Shown one piece after another: positions 12,663-32,350 of a DNA stretch of 64,000 nucleotides. Below the pieces are notes generated by a model. That model had not been told where the DNA came from. It saw nothing but the letters and a program-made list of their open reading frames with translations, and did no database searches. The position numbers were made by a program, and so were the translations under genes. Each line of letters begins with the position of its first letter. Positions within the stretch are counted from its first letter, which is position 1. Origin of the DNA: Sinohyriopsis cumingii (Eukaryota > Mollusca > Bivalvia > Unionida > Unionidae); contig CM068828.1 in NCBI GenBank assembly GCA_028554795.2, positions 7,829,720 through 7,893,719 of the forward strand. Direction: 5' to 3'.

Positions 12663-13016
12663 AGTAGTGAAAGGGGATACCGTAAACTCAATGGGAATTA
12701 ACATTACAGACCTCCCTGGGAACATATAGCCTCAATGGAAATTTAACATGGAGAAAAATCGTGGGAACATATAGCCTCAAGGGAAATTAGCATGGAGAAA
12801 AATCGTGGGACTGTTGAGCCTCAAGAGGAATTGAACATGGGAATAGGGGACTGTATAGCGTCAAAGGAATTTAAACAGGGTGGAACTGTATAGCGTCAAG
12901 GGAAATTGAACATGGGATTTTTTTTTTTAAAAATAAAAAATAAAAAAGGGGTAGGCAATCGAAAGTCATTCTCTTTTCGAGAAATGTGGGTGGCCCTGAA
13001 AAGGGCCTTTGGGTTT
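12663..13016 (+). repeat. Left terminal inverted repeat
   Basis: Begins AGTAGTGAAAGGGGATACCG. The AGT AGT start is a short tandem repeat, as expected where protein-primed replication starts by sliding back. Inside are five or six degenerate ~40 bp units with the core ATAGCCTCAA or ATAGCGTCAA and AACATGG, then an A/T tract (12909-12950) and, on the minus strand, a histone-type hairpin at 12992-13007. The inner end is GGCCTTTGGGTTT. Confidence 0.95.
12992..13007 (-). terminator. Histone-type 3' hairpin in left inverted repeat
   Basis: On the minus strand it reads CCCAAA, GGCCCTTTTCAGGGCC, ACCCA, then CTCGAAAAGAGA 8 bases later. The 6 bp stem, TTTC loop, A-rich 5' flank and ACCCA 3' flank match the metazoan histone mRNA 3' end. 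The purine-rich block sits where the U7 snRNA-binding element lies. It begins 24 nt after the stop codon of the minus-strand gene at 13032-13265. Confidence 0.85.
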
Positions 13017-13031
13017 ATGTTAATATTAATA

Positions 13032-13265
13032 TTAACATAGATGGCATCTGTCACATCTTCTTCTTCTTCTTAAACTCCTTCTAACTGCAGGTCCATACAC
13101 AAGTACCCTCTTGAGACATCCTTGTCTTTCTATGTAAACTCTTCTCATCCATAGACTAGTATCTGTCCTATCAACAACAGTCCACTTGGACCGGACATAC
13201 ATGAGCATGTTTAGGACAAACATCATTGAAGACACAAGGGTGGATGATTCAACTGTGGTCCACAT
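13032..13265 (-). CDS. Small arginine-rich Polinton protein (77 aa)
   Basis: Leftmost gene, running outward towards the left end. The ATG at 13265 was chosen because a TATAAATA box lies 52 bp upstream (13317-13310, minus). The product has a hydrophobic N-terminal third and a basic C-terminal third with RRSLRRRRRCDRCHLC, ending in a possible C-x-x-C metal site or nucleic-acid tail. No family recognised. It shares a divergent promoter region with the gene at 13485, and its 3' end is a histone-type hairpin in the inverted repeat. The arrangement (small basic product, divergent partner, hairpin end) resembles a histone gene pair, but the protein itself does not look like a histone. Confidence 0.6.
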   Translation of the reverse strand: MWTTVESSTLVSSMMFVLNMLMYVRSKWTVVDRTDTSLWMRRVYIERQGCLKRVLVYGPAVRRSLRRRRRCDRCHLC

Positions 13266-13484
13266 CTTGAGGTGACGAGAACAGGTGAATCGATGCAGTG
13301 AACTGCGCTTATTTATAGGTAGAGGAAGGGTTGAAACGGATTGAGTTCATTCACCAATCTGAACACGCGTTACAAAATTCAGTCAGCCCGCATCCAATCC
13401 GAAGAGAGCAGTCTGTGACGTCACGTGGTCTATATAGATTCGCTAGCGCCTGTGTGCAGTCAATCTATGCGACAGTGATTCAAC
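13266..13484. promoter_or_regulatory. Divergent promoter with CCAAT, CRE/E-box and two TATA boxes
   Basis: For the rightward gene: CCAAT at 13394, a perfect CRE TGACGTCA at 13416-13423 overlapping the E-box CACGTG at 13422-13427, and TATATAGA at 13431, 54 bp before the ATG at 13485. For the leftward gene: TATAAATA (13317-13310) 52 bp before its ATG at 13265. Host stress or growth factors (CREB/ATF, bHLH) could act here; that is inference from motifs only. Confidence 0.65.
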
Positions 13485-14048
13485 ATGACGGAAACTCAGA
13501 AAACGATTCATTGGGGTGCACCAGCAGTGGAGACCGCCCAAGGGAACCCGGAGTTACTTTCAGAAGAGGTAAATTGGGATTTTGTAGATTTTCTTACCTC
13601 GCAAGAATTTGTTCCGGAACCTTCGTTACCTTCTTCATTACCGCAAGTGGAGAATTTTAGACAGAGACAGAAAGAAGAATTGGAGAAATTTATACAACGA
13701 CAAAAGGAAGCGGAACAAGCTTTTCTCCTGCAGCAACAAGAAGAAGAGGTAAGAAAAAAACAACAACAAGAAGAAGTAGCAGCAGCAAAGAAACAAGAGG
13801 GTGAAAATCAAACGGTCACGGTACTGTTGGACATTTTAGCGGAGTTAAGAAGTCTGAAACAAATGTATCAGACTTCTTTATTATGACCGAAGAGAATACG
13901 ACCTTCCCGAGCTAAACACGTTAACCCTGTGACTAAGCCTACCGTACCACCCTTAGTGATTTCAACCCAATCATCATCAACAGTACGCAGTCCAGAAGTA
14001 GGCCTTGGCCGTGGCAAAGGCTTAAGGCAGTTAAAGTTGATTGCTTAA
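13485..14048 (+). CDS. Coiled-coil Polinton protein with in-frame TGA
   Basis: ATG at 13485, 54 bp after a TATA box. Residues ~1-60 are mixed; 60-110 form a Gln/Glu/Lys-rich coiled coil (QRQKEAEQAFLLQQQEEEV type). A TGA at 13884-13886 ends the open frame after 133 codons. The same frame then stays open for a further 53 codons, Pro/Ser and basic, to TAA at 14046-14048. That second stop is 21 nt before a histone-type hairpin, the same spacing as for the other outer genes. I therefore take the TGA as a recent nonsense mutation, though a natural end at 13886 is possible. Function unknown. Confidence 0.6.
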
Positions 14049-14069
14049 ACTCACCCCTACACCACAAAA

Positions 14070-14112
14070 GGCCCGTTTCAGGGCCACCCACGTTTCTCGA
14101 AAAGAGATAGCC
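14070..14112 (+). terminator. Histone-type 3' hairpin after the 13485 gene
   Basis: Stem GGCCCG / AGGGCC with TTTC loop (14070-14085; top pair mismatched), ACCCA at 14086-14090, then CTCGAAAAGAGA at 14096-14107. Sequence around it (through TTTGCCAAT) resembles the inner part of the terminal repeats, so the module appears to have been copied as a block. A long A-run follows at 14131. Confidence 0.8.
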
Positions 14113-14245
14113 TTTCAATTTGCCAATAACTCAAAAAAAAAAAAAAAAAAATTTTACCCCTATAGTACGTGTATGTGTATAAGTGTGTGAGTGTACGTCC
14201 TTATTTTAAAATCAAAACTCAAAGACACTTACCTTATATAATTAA

Positions 14246-14251
14246 TTTATT
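14246..14251 (-). promoter_or_regulatory. Poly(A) signal AATAAA for the zinc-knuckle gene
   Basis: AATAAA on the minus strand, about 82 nt past the distal stop at 14333. This gene therefore appears to use ordinary polyadenylation, unlike its neighbour. Confidence 0.5.
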
Positions 14252-14332
14252 CTTTTATCCATAGTTACAATCCAATTCACAATTCACAACAGAGCACTTT
14301 AAAAAGTTCATAGACTTCTTCTGTCTCCTTGT

Positions 14333-14803
14333 TTAGTCTCTCTGTTTTTTAAATTTCTTCACCGTCACAGGCTTTTCCTCTTCTTCCTCCTCACTTTCTT
14401 CCCTTCTTCTTTTCTTCTCCTGTTTCTTTTTCTTCACCTGTCTGCTTTCTTCCTCTCAAGAATCCCTCTCTTCTTCTGAAGAATCCCTCTCTTCTTCTGA
14501 AGAATCCCTCTTTTCTTCTGACTCCTCTTGTTTCTTTTTTTGGCAATCTGGAGACCAATGTCCTTTTTCTTGACAATAATAACAGGTATCTTGACTTTTG
14601 TCTTTTCTAGCCCCTGTTTTTGTTCTTTTATGACGGTCTGGACACTCTGAAGACCAATGCCCTTTCTTCTGACAGATATAGCAAGTATCTTGACTTTTAT
14701 CTCGAAAGGAAGGAGAGTAGTCCGTCGGCTGGTCTGAAGAGAATTTTCTAATGACCCCTCGCAAAGCTCTGATGAAACGTTCCATCTGGGTAGTCTCTTC
14801 CAT
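14333..14803 (-). CDS. Two-zinc-knuckle protein with charged tail
   Basis: ATG at 14803, 58 bp after TATATAAAAGG (minus, 14861). Two CCHC knuckles, CYICQKKGHWSSEC and CYYCQEKGHWSPDC (C-x2-C-x4-H-x4-C), are separated by a duplicated linker containing DKSQDTC. The knuckles bind single-stranded nucleic acid in retroviral Gag and in CNBP-type proteins. A run of SSEEERD repeats ends at TGA 14456-14458. The frame continues open, acidic and then Lys/Arg-rich, to TAA at 14333. I therefore give the longer extent and treat the TGA as probably a mutation. Not part of the usual Polinton core set; role perhaps in nucleoprotein handling. Confidence 0.75.
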
Positions 14804-14933
14804 CGTTGTGCTCGGTTTGAGAGTGAAATGAATAGTGAAAGGACACACACCCTTTTATATACGCTGGTCTGTCATGACTATAAATTAGTCTATGGTGTTT
14901 AAACTTGAGTCATTTTGACGTTTTGCACTCAAG
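14804..14933. promoter_or_regulatory. Divergent promoter: zinc-knuckle gene and polymerase
   Basis: Contains TATATAAAAGG on the minus strand (14861-14851) 58 bp before the ATG at 14803. On the plus strand TATAAAT (14879-14885) lies 55 bp before the polymerase ATG at 14934. Confidence 0.65.
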
Positions 14934-17900
14934 ATGAAACGATCCTATTCATTCGAGAAGAAAGAAGAAGAAAGTAAGAGGCAGAAACGTGATCTATCGC
15001 CTCGTACCAGAGCTGAAGTCTTGGCACAAATTCATGCCAGTGATTTTGAAGAGGACATGAGTGAACCAGAATCCGAACCCTCTAAACCAAGTTCGCCACC
15101 CTTAATCAACCCTGAAAAATACTATTCCATTCGAGAGACGGAAAAGCGCTCCTCTAGAAAATTTAGAACCACGGCTTACAAATACACGGTGAAGTTTAAA
15201 GATTTCAAGGCTGAAGTACCGTTAGAGAAAGCAGAAGGGTTCATCACCGGAGTGTGGGATTCTTTGCTCACCACACTCAAGCGACAATGTCAACCCAAAG
15301 AAGACGATCGCTTGAGACTTTCCATACAACACGACGGTTTGAAATCCCGTTTGGATCGAGTTTAGCAGCCCTGCAGAATTGACCACTTCCAAAGTCATGG
15401 ACAAAATTCAACACGTACAACAATCTAATGATCAGTTTGACATCACCGATGGAAGAGCCACACTGGACATGACCCACGTCTCTCCTCCTCAAGGGACTGG
15501 ACGCAAAAAGATGTTATTGGTGAACGAGCTTCGCAGCAATAAGCGTAGCCTCGTCCAAATTCACAATTCTCAAGACCAGATGTGTTTAGCCCGAGCCATC
15601 GTGGTGGGACGAACCTATGCCAACAAGAACGACACGACAGAATGGAAAAGAGCCTGGAAAACTATTCGACAATCGGACCGAGCCAAACAACGAAACGAAG
15701 CAGAACTCCTATTGCAACAAGCCGACTTGCCCAAAGGCAAACCCTGTGGCATTCCTGAGATTCAAAATTGCAAGATGTCCTAGCTCCACGATACACCTTG
15801 AAAGTGTACCCTCAAGAAATGCGTGGGCCTCTGTTGTTTCGAGGCCAAGATTTTAAGGACGGAAAATACATTCATGTCTATTATCACGATGACCATTTCG
15901 ATACCATTACCAGTATCACTGCATTCCTGGGATACGGTTATTACTGTGAGAAATGTGATTATGGTTATAATAATCGAGAGCAACACAAGCATTGTGGATT
16001 GAAATGCTCAGGATGTTTGGCCTCTCCACCCTGTCTGAGCGAAGGACCAGTGCCTTGTTCAACTTGTCTGCGCACGTTTGTCAGCCCTACCTGTTACCAA
16101 CAACATCTGAAGACGCAAGGGTCACAGCAGAAATGTGCTTGTCAACTGCTGAGATTGTGCCCTACGTGTGGACAAGGCCTACGTACCAATAATGTCAAGG
16201 CACACGTATGTTCAGGAAAGAAAAAATGTCACATTTGTCACCACATCGTGGACTTGGAACACCAATGCTACTTGCAAAAATACCAACCCCCACCAGAGAA
16301 AGAGGACGGTCACAAGAAGAAAGGCAATTTCATCTTTTTCGATTTCGAATGCATGCAAGAGACCGGCATTCACATTCCTAATTTCTGCGTGGCTCATCGA
16401 GCGTGCGAGAAGTGCATTCAGGAACCTATCTTCAGTCATTGCCCTCACTGCAGCAAGATTCCTGGAGGGCGTGAAAAAATCTTTCGGGGACCGAACACGT
16501 CAGCCGATTTTGCCCAATGGGTTTTAGACCCCACCGACAAGACGTGGAGCCAAGAGGACATCGAACGTTACGGAGATTGTCATCGTCATGCCACGGTGAT
16601 GGCTCACAATTTCTCCGGATACGATGGACAGTTTCTTTTGAGATACTATACGGAACAAGGCACCAAGCGTCCTAAAGTGACTTTGAACGGAGCCAAAATC
16701 ATTTTCATGTAAGTGGGACAAGTACAGTTTAAAGATTCGATGAGTTACTTGGCCATGCCTTTGAGCCGAATGCCTAAAACGTTTGGAATGACAGAAATGG
16801 CTAAAGGGTACTTTCCACACTTTTTCAATACGGAAGCCAATCAACACGCCGTTCTACCCCATTTACCTGAGGCTCACTATTACGACCCCGACAACATGCG
16901 TACCGAACAACGAGAAGCTTTCTACACTTGGTACCAGGCTCACGACTCGGACCCCTTCGACTTTCAGGAAGAAATGCTAAAGTATTGTCGTTCCGACGGG
17001 GACATTTTACGGCGTTGCTGTGGAAAGTTTCGAGAAATGTTCATGGAACACGGAGGGGTCGATCCTTTGAAAGAAGCTTGCACCATTGCCAAAGCGTGTT
17101 CCTTAGTGTACCGCCAACGATTCATGCCTGAAAACACCGTAGCTGTCATCAGTCCTCACACGACCCACTTTGTCAAACGTCAATACTCGGTCAAAGCCCT
17201 ACGTTGGTTACATTACTTGTGCGACAAGGAAGACAAGTGGATTCGGCATGCCCGCAACGGAGGGGGTGAAAAGACCATCGGAACGTATTCGGTCGATGGT
17301 TGGGACTTAGAAAACCCCAAGATCGTGTACGAGTTTAACGGTTGCTTATTTCACGGATGTCCTGTCTGTTATCCTGACCGTGGCACTAAAAATCAGTTTT
17401 TACAACGAACCATGGAAGACCTGTACCAGGCCGCTTGTCAGCGACGCCTAAAGTTAGAACAGGAAGGATACCAAGTGGTGGAAATGTGGGAGCGCGAGTA
17501 CGATCACCGTATGAAAACCGATCGTGAATTTAAACACCTCGTGGAAAGTTACAAGTTCATGGACCCGCTGAACCCGAGGGATAGTTTGTACGGAGGAAAG
17601 ACCAATGCCACCTGTTTGCTGTACCAAGCCGACGAAGAGAAAGGAGAAGAAATCAAATACTTGGACGTGTGTTCACTGTATCCCTACGTGTGCAAATATT
17701 GTCGCTTTCCTGTAGGGCACCCACAATTGCTGACGGAACACATCGACCTGAAAAACATTCGACAATACGAAGGCTTGATCAAGTGTAAAGTTTTCCCTCC
17801 CACGAACCTATACCATCCCGTCTTACCTCACCATTGTCAAGGCAAACTGATGTTTCCATTGTGCCGTACTTGTGCCGAAACGTGCAACCAAGATCAGCCT

Positions 17901-18896
17901 TGTCAGCACACCCAGGAAGAACGTGCCTTGACGGGAACCTGGGTCAGCGTAGAATTGTTCAAAGCTCTGGACATGGGATACCAACTGTTAGAAGTGTACG
18001 AAATTTACCACTTTCCCAAGACACGACAATACCACAAGGGTGACCCCACGCAGAAAGGCATTTTCGCTGACTACGTGGATGCTTTTTTGAAACTGAAGCA
18101 AGAAGCCAGCGGCTATCCTTCCTGGTGTCACACTCCCGAAGACCAAATAAAATTCAAAGAGAAATACAATGAACAAGAAGGCATCACTTTAGATCACATC
18201 GAGAAAAACGAAGGCAGGCGATCGTTTGCCAAAGTGATGTTAAATTGCTTGTGGGGTAAAATGGCACAACGACCGTGTTTACCCAAGACGGAATATTTGA
18301 CAGAACCTTCCCGCTACTTCCAGATGATTCACGACAAAACCAAATACATGAAACACGTGGACGTCGTTCGCGAGGATTTGATCTTGGCCAATTACGAAGA
18401 AGATCTGGACTTTGTACAAGACGACCCTTTTGGAAATGTCATCATTGCGGCTTACGTGACAGCCCATGCTCGTTTAAAATTGTACGAAGCTCTGGAACTG
18501 TTAGGGGAACGCGTCCTGTACTTTGACACGGACAGTTGCATCTACATTCATCACCAGAGTCAACAGCACCCTGACATCGAAGGAGACCGTTTAGGAGCCT
18601 GGACAGACGAACATCCCGACGACAAGATTCTAAGTTTCGTCAGTGGCGGTCCCAAAAATTACGGCTACGAATACCGGGACCCACAAGGAGAAGTGCACAC
18701 GACGTGCAAAGTGAAAGGACTGACTCTGAATTATCGTACCAGTCGAGTGGTCAACTTTGGGGTATTGAAAGAAGCCTTGCAATCGGAAGAGGATGCAAAC
18801 TTTAAAGTGACCACCTATCAACCGAACAAGATTGTACGTTTACCCACTCACCACATCGTCAGTCGGCCCCTGGAAAAAGTATATCAAATCGTGTAG
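14934..18896 (+). pseudogene. polB: Protein-primed family B DNA polymerase, broken
   Basis: About 1320 codons if read through three lesions: a shift near 15360, another near 15770 and TAA at 16710-16712. An N-terminal charged region is followed by a cysteine-rich region (15950-16300, many C-x2-C pairs). The exonuclease has FDFEC (16338-16352) and NFSGYDGQF (~16609-16635). A YEFNGCLFHGCPVCYP segment at ~17330 is typical of Polinton polymerases. Palm motifs are DVCSLYP (~17665), LNCLWGKMAQR (~18243) and YFDTDS (~18520). This enzyme replicates the element from a protein bound to the AGTAGT ends. The long 3' part (16713-18896) is intact. Lesions could include homopolymer assembly errors, but TAA at 16710 sits in ordinary sequence. 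Confidence 0.97.
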
Positions 18897-18914
18897 CAGA
18901 AGCGAGTGCGACTT

Positions 18915-18969
18915 CCCAATCATTTCACCTTACCGTAATGGACACGTCGGTATTGGTCTGTATATAAAA
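18915..18969 (+). promoter_or_regulatory. Promoter of the BIR gene (CCAAT and TATA)
   Basis: CCCAAT at 18914-18919 and TATATAAAAAGG at 18961, 65 bp before the ATG at 19026. Confidence 0.65.
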
Positions 18970-19025
18970 AGGAACCCTAGGCAAGATCGATAGTTCATTG
19001 TGACTACCAAGACCGAGCGAACAAG

Positions 19026-19661
19026 ATGAATACTTTCAGAGAAACACAAAACAAGTTCAGAAAGGCACAATTCAAGTGTGGGGCTTCTGAAGTGGAATGT
19101 GATTGTGAGCCTTGCGATGGGTACGATGCTGTACGTTGTGACCTTAGCGATGCCGTAAAGCATCATGGGAACTTTAGTGTCACTACCCCTATCATGGAAA
19201 GTGATGCTGTGCGTGTCAAACCTGAGGGATGCGAAAGCGATGCCGCTCGTCCTCTTGGACATTTTACTGGGTTTCGTTTTAAAGGTGGATGTTCACCTTC
19301 ACGTCTACCCCCTTAGGGATGCCATCCAGCGCTGAGCAAACTCCTGTCCATGTCACCCAACCCTCATCGAAACGAACCTGTGAAAGACGAATATTCGTTT
19401 CCTGTGCGTTTGTCGGAATACTGCGACTTTGAAAATCGTCTTCAATCGTTCAAAGGAAAATGGCCTAAGTATCTGTGAGGACCGACCCCCGAAGAATTAG
19501 CCAGAGCCGGATTTTTCTACTTGGGCAAAGGAGATAAAGTCAAGTGCTTCAGTTGCGGTGTGTCACTTCACCACTGGGAACCGCAAGATTCGGCCTACGT
19601 AGAACATGCTCGATGGTCACCGAATTGTCATTACTTACCCTTAGTGGGACCGAGACATTGA
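19026..19661 (+). pseudogene. BIR-domain (IAP-type) protein, two in-frame stops
   Basis: ATG at 19026 follows a TATA box at 65 bp. The first 96 codons are cysteine- and valine-rich with two GYDAV/ESDA-type repeats and no known domain. TAG at 19314 and TGA at 19476 interrupt a single frame ending at 19661. Codons ~118-205 are a clear BIR: FENRLQSF, then PEELARAGFFYLGKGDKVKC, F-S-C, WEPQDSAYVEH, R-W-S-P-N-C. The zinc ligands C-x2-C, H and C and the WE-x-x-D signature are present. BIR proteins bind caspases or their activators and block apoptosis; baculoviruses and other large DNA viruses carry them. No RING follows. The gene sits between polymerase and the structural genes. TGA at 19476 could derive from CGA by CpG decay. 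Confidence 0.85.
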
Positions 19662-19683
19662 AGTAACTTATCATAACCTGTTC

Positions 19684-19956
19684 ATGGATACTTTACACGA
19701 GAACATTCGTGCTTTGCCTGTGGAGTTGAGAGAACGCATTTACCGAGAAGTGATCAAAATACAAGTGAAACGCAAACGCAGAGTTATTCAGCCGTTTTTA
19801 AATTATGCTCTGTTTCAAAGTATAAGAAGACTGATTATGAGTGGATATTACATCAGGCACAAAGTTAAACGAGGCTATTGGCCACCACCCAAGGATTCCA
19901 AAAACAGTGTATATACTTATGGATACTTTACAAGAGAACATTTTGGGCTTGCCTGA
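19684..19956 (+). CDS. Small F-box-like protein, copy 1 (90 aa)
   Basis: Starts MDTLHENIRALPVELRERIY, almost the same as the N-terminus encoded from 19919. The LP-x-EL-x-x-x-IY pattern resembles the first helix of an F-box, but the rest is basic and unlike a standard F-box protein, so that label is weak. The frame runs into the start of the second copy and ends there, consistent with a local tandem duplication that truncated copy 1. Confidence 0.45.
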   Translation: MDTLHENIRALPVELRERIYREVIKIQVKRKRRVIQPFLNYALFQSIRRLIMSGYYIRHKVKRGYWPPPKDSKNSVYTYGYFTREHFGLA

Positions 19957-20437
19957 GGAGCTGAGAGAAAGGATTTACCGAGAGCTGGTGAAAATACAAG
20001 TCAAACGTAAAGAACAATTGCATCCATTACGTCACCAGATCTTTAACCACTGGTACCTGAATGGTATAATAGGACTGATTCGTCAGAAATTGTTTCAGTG
20101 GTCAGACCTTGTTGAACAGTTTGAGTTAGTGAATGAACTAAACGTTCGTAATTTTGGTTACTTCGAGATTCACCTACTGCAACGCATTGAGGAAGACGAG
20201 TTAAAGGATTACCAACATTTGTTACGTGGGATCTACTTAGCGGAAGAGGAAACTCCTAAACGAAGTCTGGCGTTTCGGTTACAGTATGCAAGATTTAGAT
20301 TCCCTACTGGAGAACGAAAATGTCTAGTTAGAAATTACGTGTATTGCTTCCGAAACAAAGAGACTATAAAATCAGGTTGCCATGCCACGAATTTTATCAC
20401 ATGTTATCCAACAGATTCCGTGGAAGGAACTCAATGA
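19919..20437 (+). CDS. Small F-box-like protein, copy 2 (172 aa)
   Basis: ATG at 19919 begins MDTLQENILGLPEELRERIY, a paralogue of copy 1 about 235 bp upstream, with the same KIQVKRK stretch. The remainder is predicted helical (NELNVRNFGYFEIHLLQRIE type) and matches no family I know. The same weak F-box resemblance applies at residues ~8-25; if real it would point to host ubiquitin ligases. The 3' end overlaps the ATG of the next frame at 20382. Confidence 0.5.
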   Translation: MDTLQENILGLPEELRERIYRELVKIQVKRKEQLHPLRHQIFNHWYLNGIIGLIRQKLFQWSDLVEQFELVNELNVRNFGYFEIHLLQRIEEDELKDYQHLLRGIYLAEEETPKRSLAFRLQYARFRFPTGERKCLVRNYVYCFRNKETIKSGCHATNFITCYPTDSVEGTQ

Positions 20438-20720
20438 CCATATTCAAGCCGTGGATCATTACCATCGATTATTACAAGAACTTTATCCATTCAATTTGGG
20501 TCGACAAGTGGTGTGTGTCTTAGTGACTTCTTTTCTGGGATTTCGTTTACCAGCCGATTCTTTGTGGACTCTTTACGATCAGTACTTACCACACCCCCAT
20601 GGCCTTCAATGGTCACGAAAAACTCCTTTTGCTCAAAGCCTTGCGTTTTCATCTGGATACTTCTCGACCTCAACAGGAAAAAAAGATTCGTCAACTTTAA
20701 GCTACCCAAGACGTGTATGA
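20382..20720 (+). CDS. Unknown Polinton protein overlapping its neighbours
   Basis: Frame +1 relative to the 19919 gene, opening with MPRILSHVIQQIPW and overlapping its last 18 codons. Amino-acid composition up to about 20600 looks coding (LLQELYPFNLGRQVVCVLV), whereas the part after 20600 overlaps the better frame of the next gene. It could be a separate short gene or the frameshifted C-terminus of the 19919 gene. Confidence 0.4.
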   Translation: MPRILSHVIQQIPWKELNDHIQAVDHYHRLLQELYPFNLGRQVVCVLVTSFLGFRLPADSLWTLYDQYLPHPHGLQWSRKTPFAQSLAFSSGYFSTSTGKKDSSTLSYPRRV

Positions 20721-21105: not shown

Positions 21106-21112
21106 AACATTC

Positions 21113-21118
21113 AATAAA
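21113..21118 (+). promoter_or_regulatory. Poly(A) signal AATAAA
   Basis: Eight bases after the stop at 21105. It suggests that the left rightward transcription unit ends here by ordinary polyadenylation, just before the TATA box of the ATPase gene at 21136. Confidence 0.55.
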
Positions 21119-21135
21119 CGTGTTCTGAAAAAAAG

Positions 21136-21143: not shown

Positions 21144-21189
21144 CTCTTGTCTTGTTTGTTTTCGTGTCACAAGTGACATTTCTCACACT

Positions 21190-21984: not shown

Positions 21985-21986
21985 AC

Positions 21987-24053: not shown

Positions 24054-24074
24054 CACACCAACCAACACAAAAAA

Positions 24075-25183
24075 ATGGAAAAAGTCTTAGCCAGCATTTA
24101 CTACGATCCCTCCCATCCTGCAGGTTACGCGGGAGTTCAAAAATTGTATCGTGCTGCCAAAACTCGACTGAAAAGTCTCCGTTTACCTCAGGTGCAACGA
24201 TGGTTACAAGAACAAGCTACCTACACTTTACACAAACCCATTCGACGCAAGTTTGCCAGAAGTCGCACCCGAGTGGAAGGCATCGATCATCAATGGCAAG
24301 CCGATTTAGCCGATGTCTCTCATTTGGCCAGCTACAATCGTGGCTACAAATATTTGTTTTGTGTCATCGACGTCTTTTCCAAATTTGCCTGGGTCGTGCC
24401 CTTGACTTCCAAATCCAGGAGCGAGTTAGTGCGAGCCCTGCAACGAGTGTTGAAACAAAGCGGTCGTCACCCTCGTCGATGGCAAACGGACAAAGGTACC
24501 GAATTTCTGAACCAAGCTTTCCAAAAAGAATTAAAGAAACGTGACATTCATTTTTTTACCACCGAGAATCCCGAAACCAAAGCCAGCATCGTGGAACGTT
24601 TTCAACGCACTTTGAAAGAACGCATGTGGAAATATTTTACGCATCACCACACTCTGAAGCACATCGACATCTTACCGTACCTGGTGCAAGCGTACAACCA
24701 ATCTTACCATCGAAGCATCGGACGTGCCCCGCAAGAAGTGACTCCCGACAACGAAGTGTTGGTGTTTGAGCGCCTGTTTGGTACGTCCCCGACGAGGGCT
24801 GTCCCCAAGAAAAGTGGAGAGTTGACCGTAGGAGATTGGGTGCGCATTGGCAAAACCAAACGCACTTTCGACAAAGGTTACTTACCTAACTGGACGACCG
24901 AATTATTTCGTGTCACTGGACGAGTGCATGGTCGTCATCCTGCCGTCTATAAATTGGAAGACATGAACGGAGAAGTGCTCAAAGGAACGTTTTATTTGCC
25001 CGAGTTACAACGTGTCACCAAAAAAGAAGACGACGTGTACGACATCGAAAGCATTCTCGATCGCAGAACCGTAAAGTGGGCAAACAACGTGTCAAAGAAG
25101 TGAAAGTACGTTGGAAAGGATATCGACCCAGTTTTGATTCTTGGATCGACGCTTCGCAAGTCATCGACTATAAAAAGAAGTGA
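24075..25183 (+). pseudogene. Retrovirus-type integrase with C-terminal chromodomain
   Basis: ATG at 24075. The catalytic triad is visible: D in WQADLAD (~residue 76), D in WQTDKGTEF (~139) and E in IVERF (~175), the D,D-35-E arrangement of Polinton and LTR-element integrases. It would cut the element ends and join them to host DNA, making the 6 bp duplication. The SH3-like region (VGDWVRIGK) follows. A chromodomain starts VYDIESILD, is broken by a one-base shift near 25070, and resumes as VRWKGY...DSWI to the stop at 25181-25183. The chromodomain may steer insertion to marked chromatin. Only the shift inactivates it. Confidence 0.95.
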
Positions 25184-25188
25184 ACATC

Positions 25189-25602
25189 ATGCCCTTTCAC
25201 ACAGACGCAGCTACGTCGACCACTTTTTCACCTAGTTCTTCTGTGCAAGATTTACAAAAACAACCCTTGTGGGGGTGGTGCGGAGAACATGTGCCTAAAA
25301 CGCAAATCGTCTTTTTCTGCCAAATCTTCGTGGTGTATTGTGTCATCGGGGCAGCCATTGCCAATTTGAGTTTGCAACAAGGAGGCAAACAATTGTGGAC
25401 CATTTTATTGAGCAGTTGCATCGGTTACCTGCTTCCCAATCCCTCCCTGAAATTCACTTCGAACGGGAACCACGGGAACCTTGTGTCCAGTGCCAGTGTC
25501 AGTCACCACTCCAATAACAACAACAACGACCCCATTTTAGGCGGAGACACGCCTCTGACGTCCAGTAACCCCTCGGACAGCCACAGAACTCTGGAATTAT
25601 GA
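25189..25602 (+). CDS. Two-helix membrane protein of Polintons (137 aa)
   Basis: ATG at 25189, six bases after the integrase stop. Two hydrophobic segments, IVFFCQIFVVYCVIGAAIA (~40-58) and LWTILLSSCIGYLLP (~71-85), are followed by an Asn/Ser-rich tail. The pattern VPK-x-x-IVFFCQ then LW-x-x-LLSSC-x-GYLLPNPS is shared by small membrane proteins of Polintons and related viruses. It may sit in a host membrane or an inner virion membrane; the exact role is unknown. Its last codons overlap the ATG of the minor capsid gene at 25599. Confidence 0.8.
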   Translation: MPFHTDAATSTTFSPSSSVQDLQKQPLWGWCGEHVPKTQIVFFCQIFVVYCVIGAAIANLSLQQGGKQLWTILLSSCIGYLLPNPSLKFTSNGNHGNLVSSASVSHHSNNNNNDPILGGDTPLTSSNPSDSHRTLEL

Positions 25603-26526
25603 GTTACCAAAACCAATTTTACTTAACCTTACCGAGTGACAGTTCCATGGAGGTGTTTCCCCACAACACGTTGTGCTGCTACACGGCCAAATTACCTCAG
25701 GCCATCCCCTTAGATCACGAAGCCCATTGGGAAGTGGCTTTAGTGGAAATCATTCACCCGACCCAAGTCCTCAATGTCCTTCCCAATCAAAATTTTTTTG
25801 ATGTGGAAGTTCATGACGAGCAAGTGCAAGAGTACTTGGATAAGAATGTCAAATATGACAAGAAAACCCGTACACAAAATCAAAAGTGGACCTACCACTT
25901 GTTCATTCCTCCAGGCTATTATTTTAGTGGTCAACATTTGGTCAGCACCATAGCCTCCAGGTTTAATGTCGTGTTTCTGAAAGCTTTGGAAAGTGTCAGA
26001 AAAAGTGTCACCATGGAATACCACAAAGCAGCTCGTCGCTTCTTGATGAAATTTGACGGGAGTAAAATCCTGTCCATTTTATTTTGTCCTGAATTGTATG
26101 ACATGTTGGGCGGAGACATGGACATGAGAATGGTCATGATCAAGAAAAATTGAATTATCAATCATTTACGACAACGAGTCTTTTAGCAAGTTATTTCGTG
26201 CCCCGGTAGAACTGAACCAAGGACTGAATTTGATGTTCGTGTATTCCGATGTGGTGGAGTACAACGTGGTGGGACACACCTCTGTGCCGTTACTGCGTGT
26301 CATTCCTTTCAAAGTGGATTCTGCCACGAACGCTGACGAGGAAGGTGGAAACACTTATCACGTCCACTGCGAATTTGTACATCCTCACTATTTGCCTGTC
26401 AGCAAGTCGTATTTGGACACGGTCAACATTGCTATAAAAGGAGATCTGGGACAAAATATTCCATTCACCAAAGGAAAAGTCACGGTGAAACTCCATTTTA
26501 GAAAACGGTTCACTCACGACTCGTAA
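25599..26526 (+). pseudogene. Minor capsid (penton-type) protein, one frameshift
   Basis: ATG at 25599 overlaps the membrane-protein stop (ATGA). About 310 codons if read across a one-base shift at ~26150, where an A-run has one base too many. The first part has HWEVALVEIIHP and a FFDVEV strand. The second has YSDVVEYNVVGHTSVPLLRV, HYLPVSKSY and GKVTVKLHFRKR, landmarks of the single jelly-roll minor capsid protein of Polintons. This protein closes the five-fold vertices of the capsid. It lies upstream of the pVI-like and major capsid genes in the usual order. Confidence 0.9.
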
Positions 26527-26529
26527 GTC

Positions 26530-26955
26530 ATGTATCCAGTGTACCAAGTCGTTGCTCGACAGCGAGGACACGGTTTAGGAGATATGTTAAAATCGGCCTT
26601 TCGTTCGGTGGCCCCGGTGTTGAAACCGATGGTAACACGCGGATTGCACGCCTTGAAAGATGCGGCACTGACGCAAGGCAAAGAATTTCTCCAAAATGTC
26701 ATCATCGACAAACAAAACCCTAAAGAAGCCTTTATGAGGTCTGGCAAAAATGTTTTGCTGCAAACGGGCAAAGACATTTTGGGCCGCCGAGACACACCTA
26801 TAAATGCCCTTCACGCTACCGAGTCAGGCATTCAGCAAGGACAAGGCAGAAAGAGACGACGAAGAAAACACCCTTTCACCAGACTTCACACGTCTAAAGC
26901 TAGAAAGGCCAAGAAAAGAAGAACCGTTCGAGACTTAGACGTTTTCGATTATTGA
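26530..26955 (+). CDS. pVI-like minor capsid/cement protein (141 aa)
   Basis: ATG at 26530. An N-terminal amphipathic stretch HGLGDMLKSAFRSVAPVL is followed by helices and a basic C-terminus (GRKRRRRKHP, KKRRTV), ending in acidic DLDVFDY. Position between penton and major capsid genes and the GLG-D start match the gene usually compared with adenovirus pVI, which lines the capsid and disturbs membranes on entry. TATAAAAGG at ~26432 could serve it, 97 bp upstream, further than for other genes. Confidence 0.7.
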   Translation: MYPVYQVVARQRGHGLGDMLKSAFRSVAPVLKPMVTRGLHALKDAALTQGKEFLQNVIIDKQNPKEAFMRSGKNVLLQTGKDILGRRDTPINALHATESGIQQGQGRKRRRRKHPFTRLHTSKARKAKKRRTVRDLDVFDY

Positions 26956-26969
26956 GACACAGAGAAAAA

Positions 26970-28277
26970 ATGATGCACCGAGAATCTTGGGCTTGTTCCA
27001 AGACGGAACTGGACCTGTTTGCCATGCCCCCCACGATGATGACGATGCAAGAATCCCAATGGGTGGAATTTCATCCCGTCTCCTCATTGACCGATTCCGC
27101 TCCCATCGAGTTTGAAATCAAGGGACAGCCCGAAGATTACATCGATCTGAATAGCAGTTACTTGTACTTGAAAGTCAAAGTTCTAGATAAGGATAATGGT
27201 GGAATAGATGCCACTGCTGAGAATATAGCTCCCGTCAACAATTTCATGCATTCCTTGTTCAGCTCAGTGGACTTGTACTTGAATAACAAACTGGTCAGCA
27301 GCAGCATGGATACTTACCCTTACCGTGCCTACCTGGAAAATCTCTTGACGTACGGAATAGATGCCAAGAATACTCATCTCAATGCTTGTGTGCTATGGGA
27401 ACCTGACGAAGCGAAGAAGTTTGAAAAATTTGACAATGACGGCTTTGAGGAAAGACGAAACAAAATCAAAGATGGACAGAGTTTAGAACTGATGGATCGT
27501 TTGCATTTGGACATGTGGTTGCAAGAGAAATATTTGCTAAACGGGGTGGATGTCCGCTTGAGACTGAATCTCAGCAGTGTCGCTTTCCATTTGTTGGCTG
27601 ATGATGATGCTACTAAGACTGGCAATCCTAAAAGCAAAATCGAGGAGGCCAAACTCTACGTACGACGCGTGGAAGTGTTACCTAAAGTGGGAAATGACAT
27701 CAGTCAGACGTTGAGCAGAACGACTGCCAAGTATCCGATCCGACGCGTGGAAGTGAAAACGTTCACCATTCCTGCTGGACAGCGATCCATGATCGAAGAT
27801 CATCTGTTTCAAGGGCAGTTACCCAAACGTTTAATCCTTGGTATGGTCCTGAATTCAGCCTTCAACGGAGCCTACCCTGAAAATCCTTTCAACTTTCAAC
27901 ACTTCAACGTGAAGAAAATCGAAGTCAGTCGCGATGACAAAACCTTGTGTACCCGACCTTTCGAACCTCACTTTGAGAAGAAGAATTACTTGAGATCGTA
28001 CTTGTCCCTGTACGAAGCCACGGGACAGTTAGGAACCAACACCAGTCACGGTATTACGTACGAAGATTACGAAGGAGGCTATGCTTTGTGGGCTTTCGAT
28101 TTCACTCCAGACCAAGGCAGCGACGAGGGACATTTCCACCCTATAAAATCCGGCCATATTCGTGTGGAACTTCAGTTTGCGGAACCACTGGACAAGACAG
28201 TGAACGTCATCCTGTATGCAGAATTCGATAATACGATGGAAATCAACAGTTTGAGAGAAGTCATTCTAGATTATTAG
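26970..28277 (+). CDS. Major capsid protein, double jelly-roll (435 aa, intact)
   Basis: ATG at 26970, with a second ATG next to it. The hallmarks of the Polinton capsid are present: the N-terminal segment with MQESQWVEFHPVSSL, PIEFEI, YIDLNSSYLYLKVKV, NNFMHSLFSSVDLYLN, the central IRRVEVKTFTIPAG, and the C-terminal GITYEDYEGGYALWAFDFTP...FHPIKSGHIRVELQF. Length is normal. No lesion at all, which stands out beside the broken genes around it. The protein would form the T-number hexons of an icosahedral particle. A fragment of a related gene lies at 3625-3712. Confidence 0.96.
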   Translation: MMHRESWACSKTELDLFAMPPTMMTMQESQWVEFHPVSSLTDSAPIEFEIKGQPEDYIDLNSSYLYLKVKVLDKDNGGIDATAENIAPVNNFMHSLFSSVDLYLNNKLVSSSMDTYPYRAYLENLLTYGIDAKNTHLNACVLWEPDEAKKFEKFDNDGFEERRNKIKDGQSLELMDRLHLDMWLQEKYLLNGVDVRLRLNLSSVAFHLLADDDATKTGNPKSKIEEAKLYVRRVEVLPKVGNDISQTLSRTTAKYPIRRVEVKTFTIPAGQRSMIEDHLFQGQLPKRLILGMVLNSAFNGAYPENPFNFQHFNVKKIEVSRDDKTLCTRPFEPHFEKKNYLRSYLSLYEATGQLGTNTSHGITYEDYEGGYALWAFDFTPDQGSDEGHFHPIKSGHIRVELQFAEPLDKTVNVILYAEFDNTMEINSLREVILDY

Positions 28278-28282
28278 AAGCT

Positions 28283-28786
28283 ATGGAAGACTGTTATCCC
28301 TCTTTACCTAGTGGAAAAACTTTGGACATGGAATGTGAGGAGACCGTGGAAGGAGAATCCCAAGACAAAGACGAAGAAGTTGTCATGATGAAGTCGAGAT
28401 GGCCAGAACAATAAGCCGATTTAGTCTCCTGTTTTGCCAAACACTTGGTGGAAAAAATGACGGAATTGATCAAGAAAGAGTGCTATGGATGTCAAAACGA
28501 TCATCCCAGTCAAATTCAACACAATAAATGCCTGATGCTGAGTCAAGAAGAAAAATTGGACGAGTATCTGGACGATGCTTGGAGTCTCATCTCGGACGAA
28601 GACGAGTTGCACCAGTGGTATAAAGACTTGCGTGAACATTCTTGTCCACCATTAACCACTCAAGAGATCCATCGTATCGAAGCTCTCCTGAATCAGAGTC
28701 AGGAGACGAAACGAAGAAACGGTTATTTGTCAGACATTTTCAAGCAAAAAGTCAGGATCGAATTGATGACATATTATTACCTGTGA
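28283..28786 (+). pseudogene. Polinton zinc-cluster protein, one stop
   Basis: ATG at 28283, six bases after the capsid stop. An acidic N-terminus is cut by TAA at 28412-28414; the frame then runs on to 28786 (about 167 codons). The key segment CYGCQNDHPSQIQHNKCLM has three Cys and two His in a pattern that may bind zinc and recurs in small proteins beside Polinton capsid genes. Then LHQWYKDL and LTTQEIHRIEALL. Function unknown. Relic B carries the LHQWYKDL part at 3720. Confidence 0.7.
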
Positions 28787-28808
28787 AGAAGAAAAAAACA
28801 ACACACAA

Positions 28809-29368
28809 ATGGATACCTGGGAACTTTATTAACTTTTGAACCACAGTTCGTATACGGCTTCTTGGAATCCTGTCGTCTGTGCTAAAGATGAACTCCCTCA
28901 TCGCAAACCTCAAGACCATCTAGCTTACGTGATCAACACGGACGACAGTCATCTTCCAGGAACCCACTGGGTAGCCGTTTACTTTCCTCAAGAAGGATGT
29001 GTGGAATATTTCGATTCGTACGGATTGCCCCCTTTGGAAGACGATATCATTGACTTTATGAGAAGAAATGCTCAGACCACCCGATTCAATAATGTGAAAT
29101 TACAAGGCACAGATTCCTTGGTTGTGGACAATATTGTGTGTATTTTCTGCATCATCGCAGCCTGGGCTATTCCTTAGAACATTTAGTAACTCATTTTGAT
29201 CCTCGTTCTTCTTCAAGAAACGATGTGAAAGTAGATCAATGGTTTTGTGACCATTATGCTTATCTTTTGTCTCAAGCTAGGAAACGTAGTGTCCATCAAT
29301 GGCCTAATGACTTCCAACAGTGGAAATCACAATTTCATTCACAACGTTGTCAACCCTGTTTAAAGTAG
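28809..29368 (+). pseudogene. Adenain-like cysteine protease, broken
   Basis: ATG at 28809. TAA at 28830 lies in the first codons and a one-base shift occurs near 29122, just before the catalytic cysteine. The His is in PGTHWVAVYF, the Asp in EYFDSYG and the Cys in the CGQYC segment read in the shifted frame, the His-Asp-Cys order of adenovirus and Ulp1-like proteases. The C-terminal part has HLVTHFDP and DQWFCDHY. It would process virion precursors such as the pX-like protein. At about 185 codons its size is typical. Confidence 0.92.
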
Positions 29369-29610
29369 AGTGTAAATTGAAAAAAATGTTTGTGATTTGA
29401 AAAAAAAATGTTTGATGTTATATTGTTGGATTATTGTTAAAAAAAAGTTAGAGTTGTTGGTTAGTGTTAAGTGATTTTTGAACAAAAAATGTTGTGTTTT
29501 GAAAAGAAATGCTTTGTGGTTTGTTTGGCTATAAGAATGTTGATTCATGCTCTTTGACTTCTTACTATCCCTCTCACGACACTCATCGAACGTTGCGACT
29601 CGAAAATCGT
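29369..29610. other. A/T-rich spacer after the protease
   Basis: T- and A-rich with repeated AAAAAATGTTTGTG-like units; no gene and no histone-type hairpin. A likely 3' UTR for the structural genes. Confidence 0.4.
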
Positions 29611-29641
29611 GGAGGGATGTTTTCCTTCACGTCCGCGCTTT
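29611..29641 (+). promoter_or_regulatory. Right-end promoter block, copy 1
   Basis: GGAGGGATGTTTTCCTTCAC then GTCCGCGCTTT, followed by a TATA-like TTTAAGAA at 29645, 60 bp before the ATG at 29705. Confidence 0.85.
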
Positions 29642-29704
29642 GACTTTAAGAACCGGGGGAGTTTCCAGTCTAACCATCCATTGTCGACTCATCCTCCTAC
29701 GAAG

Positions 29705-30058
29705 ATGTGCTCCAAACTAGCTAAGCTAAACGAAGCCTACGTGAATTTTCATAGGGTCAGACACAGTCTGATACCGAAGCCAGAAGAGATAGAGAATGTG
29801 AGAATGTTAAAAGTCACTGAAGACCTGATAGAAGAGCTCTTCAGAGAAGAAGTGAACAGGGAGAAAGAAGAATGGACAGAGAAGTACAGACTTCAGAGAC
29901 AGCAGCAACAGGAACAACAACAGCAGCAGCAACCTGAACCTGACAGAGGCTTTGTCGATTGTCGTATCGACACCAAAGAGTTCTTCGTCTCTTTCCGAAG
30001 AAGCAGACCTATCGTCAGAAAGTCTATCCTCAGAGGACGACGCATTCTTAGAAACTAA
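29705..30058 (+). CDS. Right-end coiled-coil protein 1 (117 aa)
   Basis: ATG at 29705, 60 bp after a weak TATA box and 64 bp after the shared promoter block. The N-terminus KLAKLNEAYVNFHRVRH resembles RLAKLLELHVHLEYARR of the next gene. The middle is a Glu/Arg coiled coil with a polyglutamine run (~80-92). The C-terminus SFRRSRPIVRKSILRGRR is basic. Stop TAA at 30056-30058, then 26 nt to a histone-type hairpin. No known function; the N-terminal similarity, promoter and 3' end define a small gene family with the two genes to its right. Confidence 0.7.
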   Translation: MCSKLAKLNEAYVNFHRVRHSLIPKPEEIENVRMLKVTEDLIEELFREEVNREKEEWTEKYRLQRQQQQEQQQQQQPEPDRGFVDCRIDTKEFFVSFRRSRPIVRKSILRGRRILRN

Positions 30059-30075
30059 AAGATTGCCATAGCAAA

Positions 30076-30250
30076 CAAAAAAACAGCCCTTTTCAGGGCT
30101 ACCCAATACTCTAGAAAAGAAATAACCATCGATTTGCCAATGTGTGTAGGTAGAGTAGTGTGAATATAAACACTGACTCTTTTTTCCTAGTGTGAGGGTA
30201 TGTGTTTGTGTATATGATTGTGTGTTTCTAAGTGCTCACGTACGTTTGTG
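30076..30250 (+). repeat. Intergenic direct repeat, copy 1
   Basis: About 170 bp from the hairpin through GTGAATATAAACACTGACTC to GTGCTCACGTA, repeated at 30963-31140 with few differences. The repeat shows that the hairpin and following spacer spread as one block. Confidence 0.85.
30085..30122 (+). terminator. Histone-type 3' hairpin after gene 29705
   Basis: Perfect stem AGCCCT / AGGGCT with TTTC loop (30085-30100), ACCCA at 30101-30105, then CTAGAAAAGAAA from 30111. An A-rich leader (AAAAAAAC) precedes it. Confidence 0.85.
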
Positions 30251-30470
30251 TGGATAGTAGATTAAGATGATGTTTTTTGGCTGTTTCAGGTGTGGGGAGA
30301 GTAGATTTGGGGGTTTGATTGGATTGCTTTGCGTATGTGAATAGTATATTGAAGTGGTTAATGAAAAATTTTTTAGAATAGGAATGGGTAGTATAAAAAA
30401 AGTGAGTGTTTCTTTTAGGTCCACGCGTAGTTTTGGTCATGATCCAGGTAAGATCAATTTTATGTTTTTA

Positions 30471-30510
30471 GGGGGATGTTTTCCTTCACGTCCGCGCTTT
30501 TAGTATAAAT
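30471..30510 (+). promoter_or_regulatory. Right-end promoter block, copy 2, with TATA box
   Basis: GGGGGATGTTTTCCTTCACG then TCCGCGCTTT (30471-30500), and TATAAAT at 30504-30510, 57 bp before the ATG at 30561. A 33 bp leader starting TTTGGTCATGATC (30434) precedes it and recurs at 31256. Confidence 0.88.
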
Positions 30511-30560
30511 TGAAACTCGTTCGGCAGTCCAGCTACCCTTGTTGATTGATCAACACCAGA

Positions 30561-30966
30561 ATGAACACCAGACTAGCGAAACTGTTGGAACTTCATGTGC
30601 ATCTGGAATATGCCAGGCGCCTGTTGAACGAACTGGCCGCGGAAGCCATTGTAGAAGAGAGAAGGATGAAAGAGGAGGAGAGAAGAAACAAAGAAGAGGA
30701 GGAGAGAAGATACAATGAAGAGGCGGAGAGAAGATACAAAGAAGAGGAGGAGGAGAGAAGAAACAAAGAAGAGGAGGAAAAGGAGAGAAGAAATTTCAGA
30801 ATCCCAGAGACAGAAAATTGGGATTCTGAAGCTATTTATCCCGCTTCTGCTCTCTCCCCAAAAAAATAAAAAAGCAACTGGTGAAGAAGATGTGTATGTG
30901 GCGCCAGGCCTGGAAGGTGCCATCATTAACCAGGTGTCCATGAAGTTCCAAAAAAAACAAAAATAA
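30561..30966 (+). CDS. Right-end coiled-coil protein 2, shifted tail
   Basis: ATG at 30561. N-terminal helix RLAKLLELHVHLEYARRLL, then a long Glu/Arg/Lys coiled coil of RRxKEEEE repeats and RNFRIPETENWD. The first frame ends at 30869 in an A-run (CCAAAAAAATAA). One base on, the frame stays open through DVYVAPGLEG to TAA at 30964-30966, only 5 nt before a histone-type hairpin. Relic B keeps the DVYVAPGLEG counterpart (~4390-4440), so the tail was coding and the A-run has gained a base, in DNA or in the assembly. Function unknown. Confidence 0.7.
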
Positions 30967-31140
30967 AAAACAGCCCTTTTCAAGGCTACCCAATACTCTA
31001 GAAAAGAAATAACCATCAATTTGCCAATGTGTGTATGTAGAGTAGTGTGAATATAAACACTAACTCTTTTTTTATAGTGTGAGTGTATGTGTTTGTGTAT
31101 AGGATTGTGTGTTTGTAAGTGCTCACGTAGGTTTGTGTGA
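30963..31140 (+). repeat. Intergenic direct repeat, copy 2
   Basis: Second copy of 30076-30250: hairpin, TTTGCCAATGTGTGTA, AATATAAACACTAACTC and GTGCTCACGTAGG. Confidence 0.85.
30972..31010 (+). terminator. Histone-type 3' hairpin after gene 30561
   Basis: AGCCCT / AAGGCT stem with TTTC loop (30972-30987; one C-A mismatch), ACCCA at 30988-30992, then CTAGAAAAGAAA. Confidence 0.78.
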
Positions 31141-31223
31141 ATAGTAGATTATGGGTTTGTTTATTGTTTCTTAGCGTATGTGGAGAGTATAGTTTGGGTT
31201 TTATTATATGAAATGAGAAAGTA

Positions 31224-31250
31224 GGGGGATGTTTTCCTTCACGTCCGCAC
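31224..31250 (+). promoter_or_regulatory. Right-end promoter block, copy 3 (orphan)
   Basis: GGGGGATGTTTTCCTTCACG then TCCGCAC. It lacks its own TATA box and gene; copy 4 follows 69 bp later after the TTTGGTCATGATC leader, so it is probably left over from a tandem duplication or gene loss. Confidence 0.8.
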
Positions 31251-31292
31251 GTTGTTTGGTCATGATCTAGGTAATATCAATTTTATGTCTTA

Positions 31293-31331
31293 GGGGGATG
31301 TTTTCCTTCACGTCAGCGCTTTAACTATAAG
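31293..31331 (+). promoter_or_regulatory. Right-end promoter block, copy 4, with TATA box
   Basis: GGGGGATGTTTTCCTTCACG then TCAGCGCTTT, with TATAAGA at 31326, 56 bp before the ATG at 31382. Confidence 0.85.
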
Positions 31332-31381
31332 AACCTACAAAGTTCGTCGTTCGCACCATTCTACAGAATAATCTAGACAAG

Positions 31382-31979
31382 ATGACGCAAGTGACTGATT
31401 TATTTAATCAATTGAGGCATATCTATTTCTGGATGATAGATGCAGAATATGCTATAGAAAGGATACAAAAGGAATGGAAGTATGAAGATAAAGAACACTT
31501 GGTAACCAGTCAAGTCGAACGTCTAAAGGCCGCCAGACATATAATAGAAGGAATGATAGAAGATGAAGTCAACAAATCAAGAGGATTTATTGACCCACCT
31601 TATGTCAGAGTGGGGAGTTTGAAGGAAGCACTGGATTATGTCATCCAAGTCAGGTGCTTCCTAGAACATATAGTGTATTGGACGGAGTTGTCATATGTGA
31701 AGAGGGGGCTGGACAGGTTGAAAAAAAGGAGAAGAAATAATGAAACAAGTGATGACTGAAGAGGTGAAAAAGATAAAAGAAAAATGGAGTCAAGAAAGAC
31801 AGGATAAGGAAACAATAAAGAAGAAAGAGGCCTTTGACAAAGTCAATCAGAATTGGATCAAGATACAAGAGAAGTTCAGGGCTATGAGTCACCCAGACTG
31901 GTTACCAGAAAAAGAAAAGAGGAAGAACAAAGGAATTTGGGGAAAGATTAGGGGCTGGATGAGGAAATGGAGGAAATAG
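31382..31979 (+). CDS. Right-end coiled-coil protein 3, shifted tail
   Basis: ATG at 31382. The first frame gives 125 residues, helical and charged (LFNQLRHIYFWMIDAEYAIERI), ending at 31759. An overlapping frame one base on (ATG at 31740) continues with a Lys/Glu-rich helix and GIWGKIRGWMRKWRK to TAG at 31977-31979, 21 nt before the histone-type hairpin of the right inverted repeat. Either one gene with a one-base lesion or two overlapping genes; the constant stop-to-hairpin spacing favours one. Function unknown. Confidence 0.65.
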
Positions 31980-31991
31980 AAGAAGCAGAAG

Positions 31992-32350
31992 AAACCCAAA
32001 GGCCCTTTTTCAGGGCCACCCACATTTCTCGAAAAGAGAATGACTTTCGATTGCCTACCCCATTTTTATTTTTTATTTTAAAAAAAAAAATCCCATGTTC
32101 AATTTCCCTTGACGCTATACAGTCCCACCCTGTTTAAATTCCTTTGACGCTATACAGTCCCCTATTCCCATGTTCAATTCCTCTTGAGGCTCAACAGTCC
32201 CACGATTTTTCTCCATGTTAATTTCCCTTGAGGCTATATGTTCCCACGATTTTTCTCCATGTTAAATTTCCATTGAGGCTATATGTTCCCGGGGGGGGGG
32301 GGTCTGTAATGTTAAGTCCCATTGAGGCTACGGTATCCCCTTTCACTACT
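31992..32350 (-). repeat. Right terminal inverted repeat
   Basis: Reverse complement of 12663-13016 apart from a G-run (32291-32302, CCTCCC on the left copy) and a few substitutions. It ends CACTACT and contains the same subterminal units around ATACAGTCCC and ATATGTTCCC. Confidence 0.95.
32001..32043 (+). terminator. Histone-type 3' hairpin in right inverted repeat
   Basis: CCCAAA, then GGCCCT / AGGGCC stem with a five-base TTTTC loop (one T more than the other copies), ACCCA at 32018-32022, then CTCGAAAAGAGA from 32028. Serves the gene at 31382. Confidence 0.82.

Follow-up and report, generated by a model that had tools for sequence, protein, structure and literature searches.

Predicted histone-type mRNA 3' ends on the outer genes of a Polinton in Sinohyriopsis cumingii

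How the messages of a mobile element come to their ends is the question raised by a Polinton in the genome of the bivalve Sinohyriopsis cumingii (assembly GCA_028554795.2). The element of about 19.7 kb occupies positions 12663-32350 of a stretch of 64,000 nucleotides on contig CM068828.1 (7,829,720 to 7,893,719, forward strand), hereafter the window, and contains terminal inverted repeats (TIRs) of about 355 nt, a family-B DNA polymerase (PolB), and an integrase. An initial annotation, made from the letters alone, had placed five hairpins behind the outer genes and likened them to metazoan replication-dependent histone mRNA ends, in which a stem-loop for the stem-loop binding protein (SLBP) is followed by a target of the U7 small nuclear ribonucleoprotein (U7 snRNP). 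In the follow-up analysis described here, the outer-gene transcripts are predicted with considerable confidence to end in replication-dependent histone-type 3' ends, which suggests that the Polinton borrows the histone RNA machinery of its host.

Stem-loops and purine blocks behind the outer genes

All five hairpins were found at the positions and on the strands first proposed. Stem-loop L1 (GGCCCT-TTTC-AGGGCC, intact) lies on the minus strand at 12992-13007, and its purine block GAAAAGAGA, a candidate histone downstream element, at 12970-12978 (-). L2 (GGCCCG-TTTC-AGGGCC) at 14070-14085 (+) is accompanied by GAAAAGAGA at 14099-14107 (+). At the right end, all on the plus strand, R1 (AGCCCT-TTTC-AGGGCT, intact; 30085-30100) is followed by GAAAAGAAA at 30114-30122, R2 (AGCCCT-TTTC-AAGGCT; 30972-30987) by GAAAAGAAA at 31001-31009, and R3 (GGCCCT-TTTTC-AGGGCC, with a 5-nt loop, in the right TIR; 32001-32017) by GAAAAGAGA at 32031-32039. 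The 6-bp stem claimed for all five is full in three, L2 having lost the loop-closing pair in this copy and R2 carrying a mismatch at pair 5. The purine block expected some 8-10 bases beyond ACCCA is present in every case: ACCCA follows the stem, 8 nt intervene, and GAAAAGAGA or GAAAAGAAA starts 13 nt past the stem, a spacing also kept at R3 (in a 14-nt register). Each stem-loop is in the sense of the gene preceding it, and the distances from stop codon to stem (24, 21, 26, 5, and 21 nt for L1, L2, R1, R2, and R3) agree with the range of 5-26 nt initially given. Inside the element, the transcript strand has neither AATAAA nor ATTAAA in the 750 nt that follow each of the five hairpins, nor does it in the remainder of the TIRs.

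The Rfam histone 3' UTR stem-loop model RF00032 (gathering threshold 34 bits; E-values for 22.5 kb against 4227 families) matched all five, at 13012-12967 (-) with 40.8 bits (E 5e-9), 31996 with 31.9 bits (E 1e-5), 30080 with 31.0 bits (E 2.2e-5), 14065 with 28.4 bits (E 2e-4), and 30967 with 21.6 bits (E 0.072). It was the only Rfam family above gathering in the window, and only once, at 13012-12967, so one of the five hairpins passes. At E<=10 the whole window gave seven RF00032 rows, namely the five hairpins, one at 8592, and one at 49159 that was taken as chance (17.9 bits, E 4.9). A yardstick for chance came from the lone match of the exact 19-nt core of the module (GGCYCTTTTCAGRGCCACC) in viral contigs, which stands without flanks in an unrelated GC-rich contig, scored 21.3 bits, and was rejected as a chance match. 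The 21.6 bits of R2 are no better than this, and the case for R2 therefore rests on its sister copies.

With its A-rich flank, stem, UUUC loop, ACCCA, purine block, place near a stop codon, and RF00032 match, the layout bears out the likeness to metazoan histone mRNA ends, and the scores lie above what simulated sequence would allow, a comparison that the initial annotation had set as a test. Thirty first-order Markov simulations of the element yielded no hairpin with such a loop that had both ACC and a purine block, compared with five in the real element (the simulation script lists six, counting 32001 in two registers). The hairpins at 12992 and 32001 come from a single TIR sequence that is present twice, and the regions of 30085 and 30972 are 91% alike over 207 nt; the five hairpins therefore amount to about three independent observations.

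A further copy, absent from the initial annotation, was found at 8597-8612 (+), with one stem mismatch and a purine block at 8626-8632. It belongs to the right-end relic of a second, diverged Polinton (8350-8880), which thus has its own histone-type end (RF00032 match 8592-8637 (+), 26.8 bits, E 0.0024 in the whole-window cmscan). Compared with the TIR regions, the relic retains 85-88% identity over flank and stem-loop and 74% over spacer and purine block, against 55-66% outside.

Conservation of the module and its genes in the host genome

The host assembly (2.905 Gb, 1138 contigs) contains 13,976 exact core matches (6873 + 7103); the reversed core pattern has none, with about 0.1 expected at even base composition by our own arithmetic. 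Not every one of these matches need be a Polinton, and some may belong to host histone genes. A list of 100 core places was drawn, and all sampled stretches come from the first 12.2 Mb of contig C1. GAAAAGA[AG] stands 13 nt past the stem at 64 of 68 distinct sampled sites and the other four have altered blocks; the sites were picked by the exact core and so test only the sequence outside it, duplicates and sites near locus ends having been dropped. All nine core loci aligned to the window were left ends of this element, with about 88-94% identity. Right ends were taken blind, as stretches 15-19.5 kb beyond left-end hairpins (20, then 20 more). A profile built from the window copies detected the module in 17 of the first 20 (nhmmer), and RF00032 reached gathering in 12 of these 20 (13 matches), in 2/10 of the second set (2 matches), and in 10/10 loci picked by the core pattern (18 matches). 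The feature is thus present in other copies of the same Polinton family, which the initial annotation had made a test of its proposal. Of 73 distinct sites with 700 nt upstream, 57 have an ATG-started open reading frame (ORF) of 60 aa or more whose end lies no farther than 80 nt upstream of the hairpin. For random positions drawn from these loci the figure is 131 of 1781, and the median distances from ORF end to hairpin are 28, 24, and 25 nt in three site classes. In one locus (L048, G000:C1:7672400-7673700), two left-end fragments stand head to head and their hairpins, separated by about 0.4 kb, point outward, as a rearranged or inverted copy would give.

To avoid choice by the hairpin, sites in 40 stretches and the window were located through the tail that follows the purine block, using tail models trained on sites first found with the hairpin profile and dropping late-starting tail matches. 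This gave 47 AGCCCT-type sites in 27 of the 41 sequences and 35 TIR-type sites in 34; some sequences have neither type, truncated, shifted, and lost ends not being separated. All six pairs are formed in 44/47 AGCCCT-type and 31/35 TIR-type (GGCCCT) sites, one of the four exceptions among the latter being the window copy with the 5-nt loop read in the wrong register. The claim that both stem versions keep pairing therefore stands for the pairing itself; strict covariation is thin, with one two-sided change, and a strong covariation claim was rejected as resting on a single pair. In AGCCCT-type sites (n=47), the fraction of non-majority bases is 0.005 for the stem-loop, 0.007 for the purine block, 0.038 for the five bases ahead of the stem, 0.021 for the five that follow it, and 0.027 for the stretch from there to the purine block. 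The corresponding fractions in TIR-type sites (n=34) are 0.011, 0.013, 0.018, 0.147 (positions 17-21), and 0.038; farther out, beyond the module, values are 0.075-0.382. Two islands are kept, a hairpin of the SLBP type together with its A-rich flank and a block of the U7 type, which is the pattern that a histone 3' end should show. Sequence signal, fixed geometry, place after stop codons, and conservation over many genomic copies are thus strongly supported.

The genes ahead of the hairpins are short. Outer gene L1 is an ATG-ORF of 77 aa at 13032-13265 (-), and L2 lies at 13485-14048 (+), where an in-frame stop at 13884-13886 interrupts this copy; some other copies in the host genome are uninterrupted and encode 186-197 aa. 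R1 (29705-30058 (+)) encodes 117 aa. The R2 region (30561-30966 (+)) is open at 30561-30869 and, in a different frame, up to the stop at 30966; the R3 region (31382-31979 (+)) likewise at 31382-31759 and, again in a different frame, up to the stop at 31979. The pN/pS ratios, computed from intact ORFs only, are 0.09 for R1 (16 genomic copies), 0.41 for L2 (n=10), and 0.35 for R3 (n=23, pS 0.585), and these three outer genes are under purifying selection. The R1 protein has 12 homologs of 55-81% identity in the protein collection, of which 9 end at the same residue as R1 in the window; the R1 stop is therefore real. A Pfam search at E<=0.1 returned no histone model among the outer-gene frames, and the outer genes are not histones.

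The three right-end genes also share a promoter box GATGTTTTCCTTCACGTCCGCGC, located on the plus strand at 29616-29638 before R1 (repeat D5), at 30475-30497 before R2 (from the box search), and at 31297-31319 before R3; one more box, which lacks TATA, lies at 31228. Downstream of the box there is usually a TATAA or TTTAA. With up to four edits and on the hairpin strand, at least one box was present in 16 of the first 20 blind right-end stretches; the order of box and hairpin recurs three times in L072, L075, L084, L089, and L090, as in the window, and among the remaining stretches some are without a box and some without a hairpin.

A proposed use of the host histone pathway and its alternatives

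From this signal we infer recognition by host SLBP and U7, messages that lack poly(A), and an association with S phase. Host RNA polymerase II would read each short outer gene, host SLBP would bind the hairpin, and U7 snRNP would pair with the purine block, CTCGAAAAGAGA and CTAGAAAAGAAA being the candidate U7 5' end targets; the transcript would then be cut after ACCCA and receive no poly(A). These steps would correspond to the histone-end mechanism (SLBP, U7 snRNP, cleavage, no poly(A)) as outlined in passages of PMC5706932. Two left-end and three right-end genes would carry this ending, the right three as monocistronic cassettes with the shared box, and the transcription units would end inside the TIR, ahead of host DNA. 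Expression might be limited to S phase or favoured in it, when the host has plenty of histone-processing factors and DNA is being replicated, as would fit a replicating element. We lean slightly towards the more far-reaching proposal that the five genes form a regulon which hijacks the histone-mRNA pathway to make non-polyadenylated S-phase messages, perhaps processed in the histone locus body, and which would represent the first non-histone, mobile-element-encoded class of such messages.

Several observations weigh against a histone-type end. The AGCCCT-type hairpins R1 and R2 score under gathering in the window, and the gathering matches of the first 20 right-end stretches are all of the TIR type, none falling on an AGCCCT-type hairpin. 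The post-stem bases of TIR copies are less conserved than in histone mRNAs, with AGCCA commoner than ACCCA after the stem in the right-end TIR sample, and the covariation between classes consists of the change from G-C to A-U at pair 1. In addition, searching genome contigs with the 435-aa capsid-like protein of the element yielded two distant Polintons, L002 and L003, without an RF00032 row at E<=5; this counts weakly, L002 ending about 0.8 kb past its last Polinton gene and L003 being degenerate. The two are filed under bacterial genomes, a tubeworm endosymbiont metagenome-assembled genome (MAG) and a Breoghania MAG, and are probably host contamination.

Chance resemblance was rejected on the Markov simulations, the identities of the relic at 8592, the genome core counts, the stem pairing, and the conservation zones, and the alternatives that accept a real feature differ in what it would do. 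Hairpin and block might act in DNA, as a TIR or subterminal repeat bound by terminal protein, integrase, or a replication factor, with the histone likeness due to origin or coincidence. Two of the five copies do sit at the inner edges of the TIRs, and the element is rich in repeats; yet the other three are internal, each lying behind a stop codon and oriented like its gene, conservation is highest at the stem-loop with its SLBP-type flank and at the purine block and drops in the TIR beyond, and the loop and ACCCA, as parts of RF00032, are features of an RNA, all of which makes a DNA site unlikely. A host histone 3' end could also have been captured once and copied along passively, unused. The sequence shared beyond the purine block in all copies does point to descent from one module, but passive sequence should diverge like its flanks, and the module changes at least 7 times more slowly than the zones outside. 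With this, the uneven identities of the relic at 8592, and the pairing kept, unconstrained inheritance was rejected and passive capture is judged very unlikely.

The remaining alternatives concern the RNA. SLBP might serve stability, export, localisation, or translation of a polyadenylated message, or the hairpins might be decoys that draw SLBP from host histone mRNAs. Roles of SLBP beyond cleavage are described in parts of PMC5706932, but the purine block at fixed distance, which such roles do not need, is as conserved as the stem-loop, and this reading receives slightly less credence even than passive capture. Least probable is the hairpin rule of Mimiviridae and their satellites, under which both cleavage at hairpins and polyadenylation are the work of viral proteins, an enzyme and a polymerase, respectively. 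Hairpin-terminated transcripts are established there according to excerpts of PMC4402537; the signal in those viruses is a palindromic hairpin, in contrast to the specific sequence, loop, flanks, and downstream purine block found here, and no poly(A) polymerase family appeared among the 20 ORFs scanned with Pfam. The histone-type end thus remains the preferred reading.

If it is true, a histone-type ending on non-histone genes of a mobile element would break the rule that histone mRNAs are a unique class without poly(A), as stated in sections of PMC12775136 (2026). Polinton expression would also be linked to DNA replication in the host, the outer genes could escape notice in poly(A)-selected RNA data, and thousands of natural variants would be available for testing the needs of SLBP and U7. 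A literature search that also took in SLBP in viruses and transposons, with most subscription journals outside its coverage, returned no earlier report of histone-type 3' ends in Polintons, Mavericks, or adintoviruses. No Polinton relatives were found in viral contigs, and the core pattern had no match in the genome-contig collection.

The element and its place among known systems

Of the hallmarks of Polinton/Maverick elements, a protein-primed-type PolB and a retroviral-type integrase are present. The left TIR (12663-13016 (-), with repeat arms I1, I2, and I3) starts at its inner edge just ahead of the A-rich flank of stem-loop L1, and the right TIR (31993-32350 (+)) was delimited by repeat analysis; a 360-nt match to 31992-32350 shows 95.8% identity between them. 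The hexamers flanking the TIRs, AGGGAG and AGCGAG, inspected for a 6-bp target duplication, are alike at 5 of 6 positions. Imperfect tandem repeats of about 45 nt occur inside the TIRs at 12700-12917 and 32091-32299 (D3, D6).

This copy is decayed, with reading frames broken in several genes. PolB is represented by an open frame at 16713-18896 (+) (PF03175, 8e-37) and a second piece in another frame at 15759-16712, and its homologs include an adintovirus PolB. The integrase lies at 24054-25103 (+) (PF00665, 1.6e-14). The 435-aa protein at 26970-28277 (+) is probably the major capsid protein, although it is without a model match. Its homologs number 1333, and those with a name in the 120 matches listed are mollusc 'F54H12.2-like' proteins. 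Downstream of PolB, a frame at 19479-19658 (+) encodes a BIR (inhibitor of apoptosis) domain (PF00653, 8.4e-21), and a Saccostrea protein annotated as PolB (P0234) has BIR and RING domains; an apoptosis inhibitor may therefore be regular cargo of mollusc Polintons. Beside L2, on the opposite strand, a gene with two CCHC zinc knuckles (14456-14854 (-)) has AATAAA at 14251 (-) and no histone-type hairpin.

Among known systems, histone genes of C. elegans are similar in having a hairpin and a putative downstream element, and differ in that AATAAA is close by there, as far as described in portions of PMC1924863, compared with none within 750 nt here. Mimiviridae share a 3' end at a hairpin; theirs is made by viral cleavage and polyadenylation in the cytoplasm (PMC4402537), with no histone-type sequence. 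By its TIRs, PolB, integrase, and length, the element resembles Polinton/Maverick elements and adintoviruses, and for adomaviruses the consulted part of PMC11071296 deals with histone-like proteins ('Histoid') and not with histone 3' ends. The closest counterpart is the replication-dependent histone mRNA end. Unlike it, the Polinton module follows non-histone genes, has an A-U instead of a G-C first pair in the AGCCCT subtype, and often has AGCCA after the stem in right-end TIR copies; like it, the module combines an A-rich 5' flank, a 6-bp stem, a UUUC loop, ACC(C)A, and, after about 8 nt more, a purine block, and it lies near the stop codons of short intronless genes.

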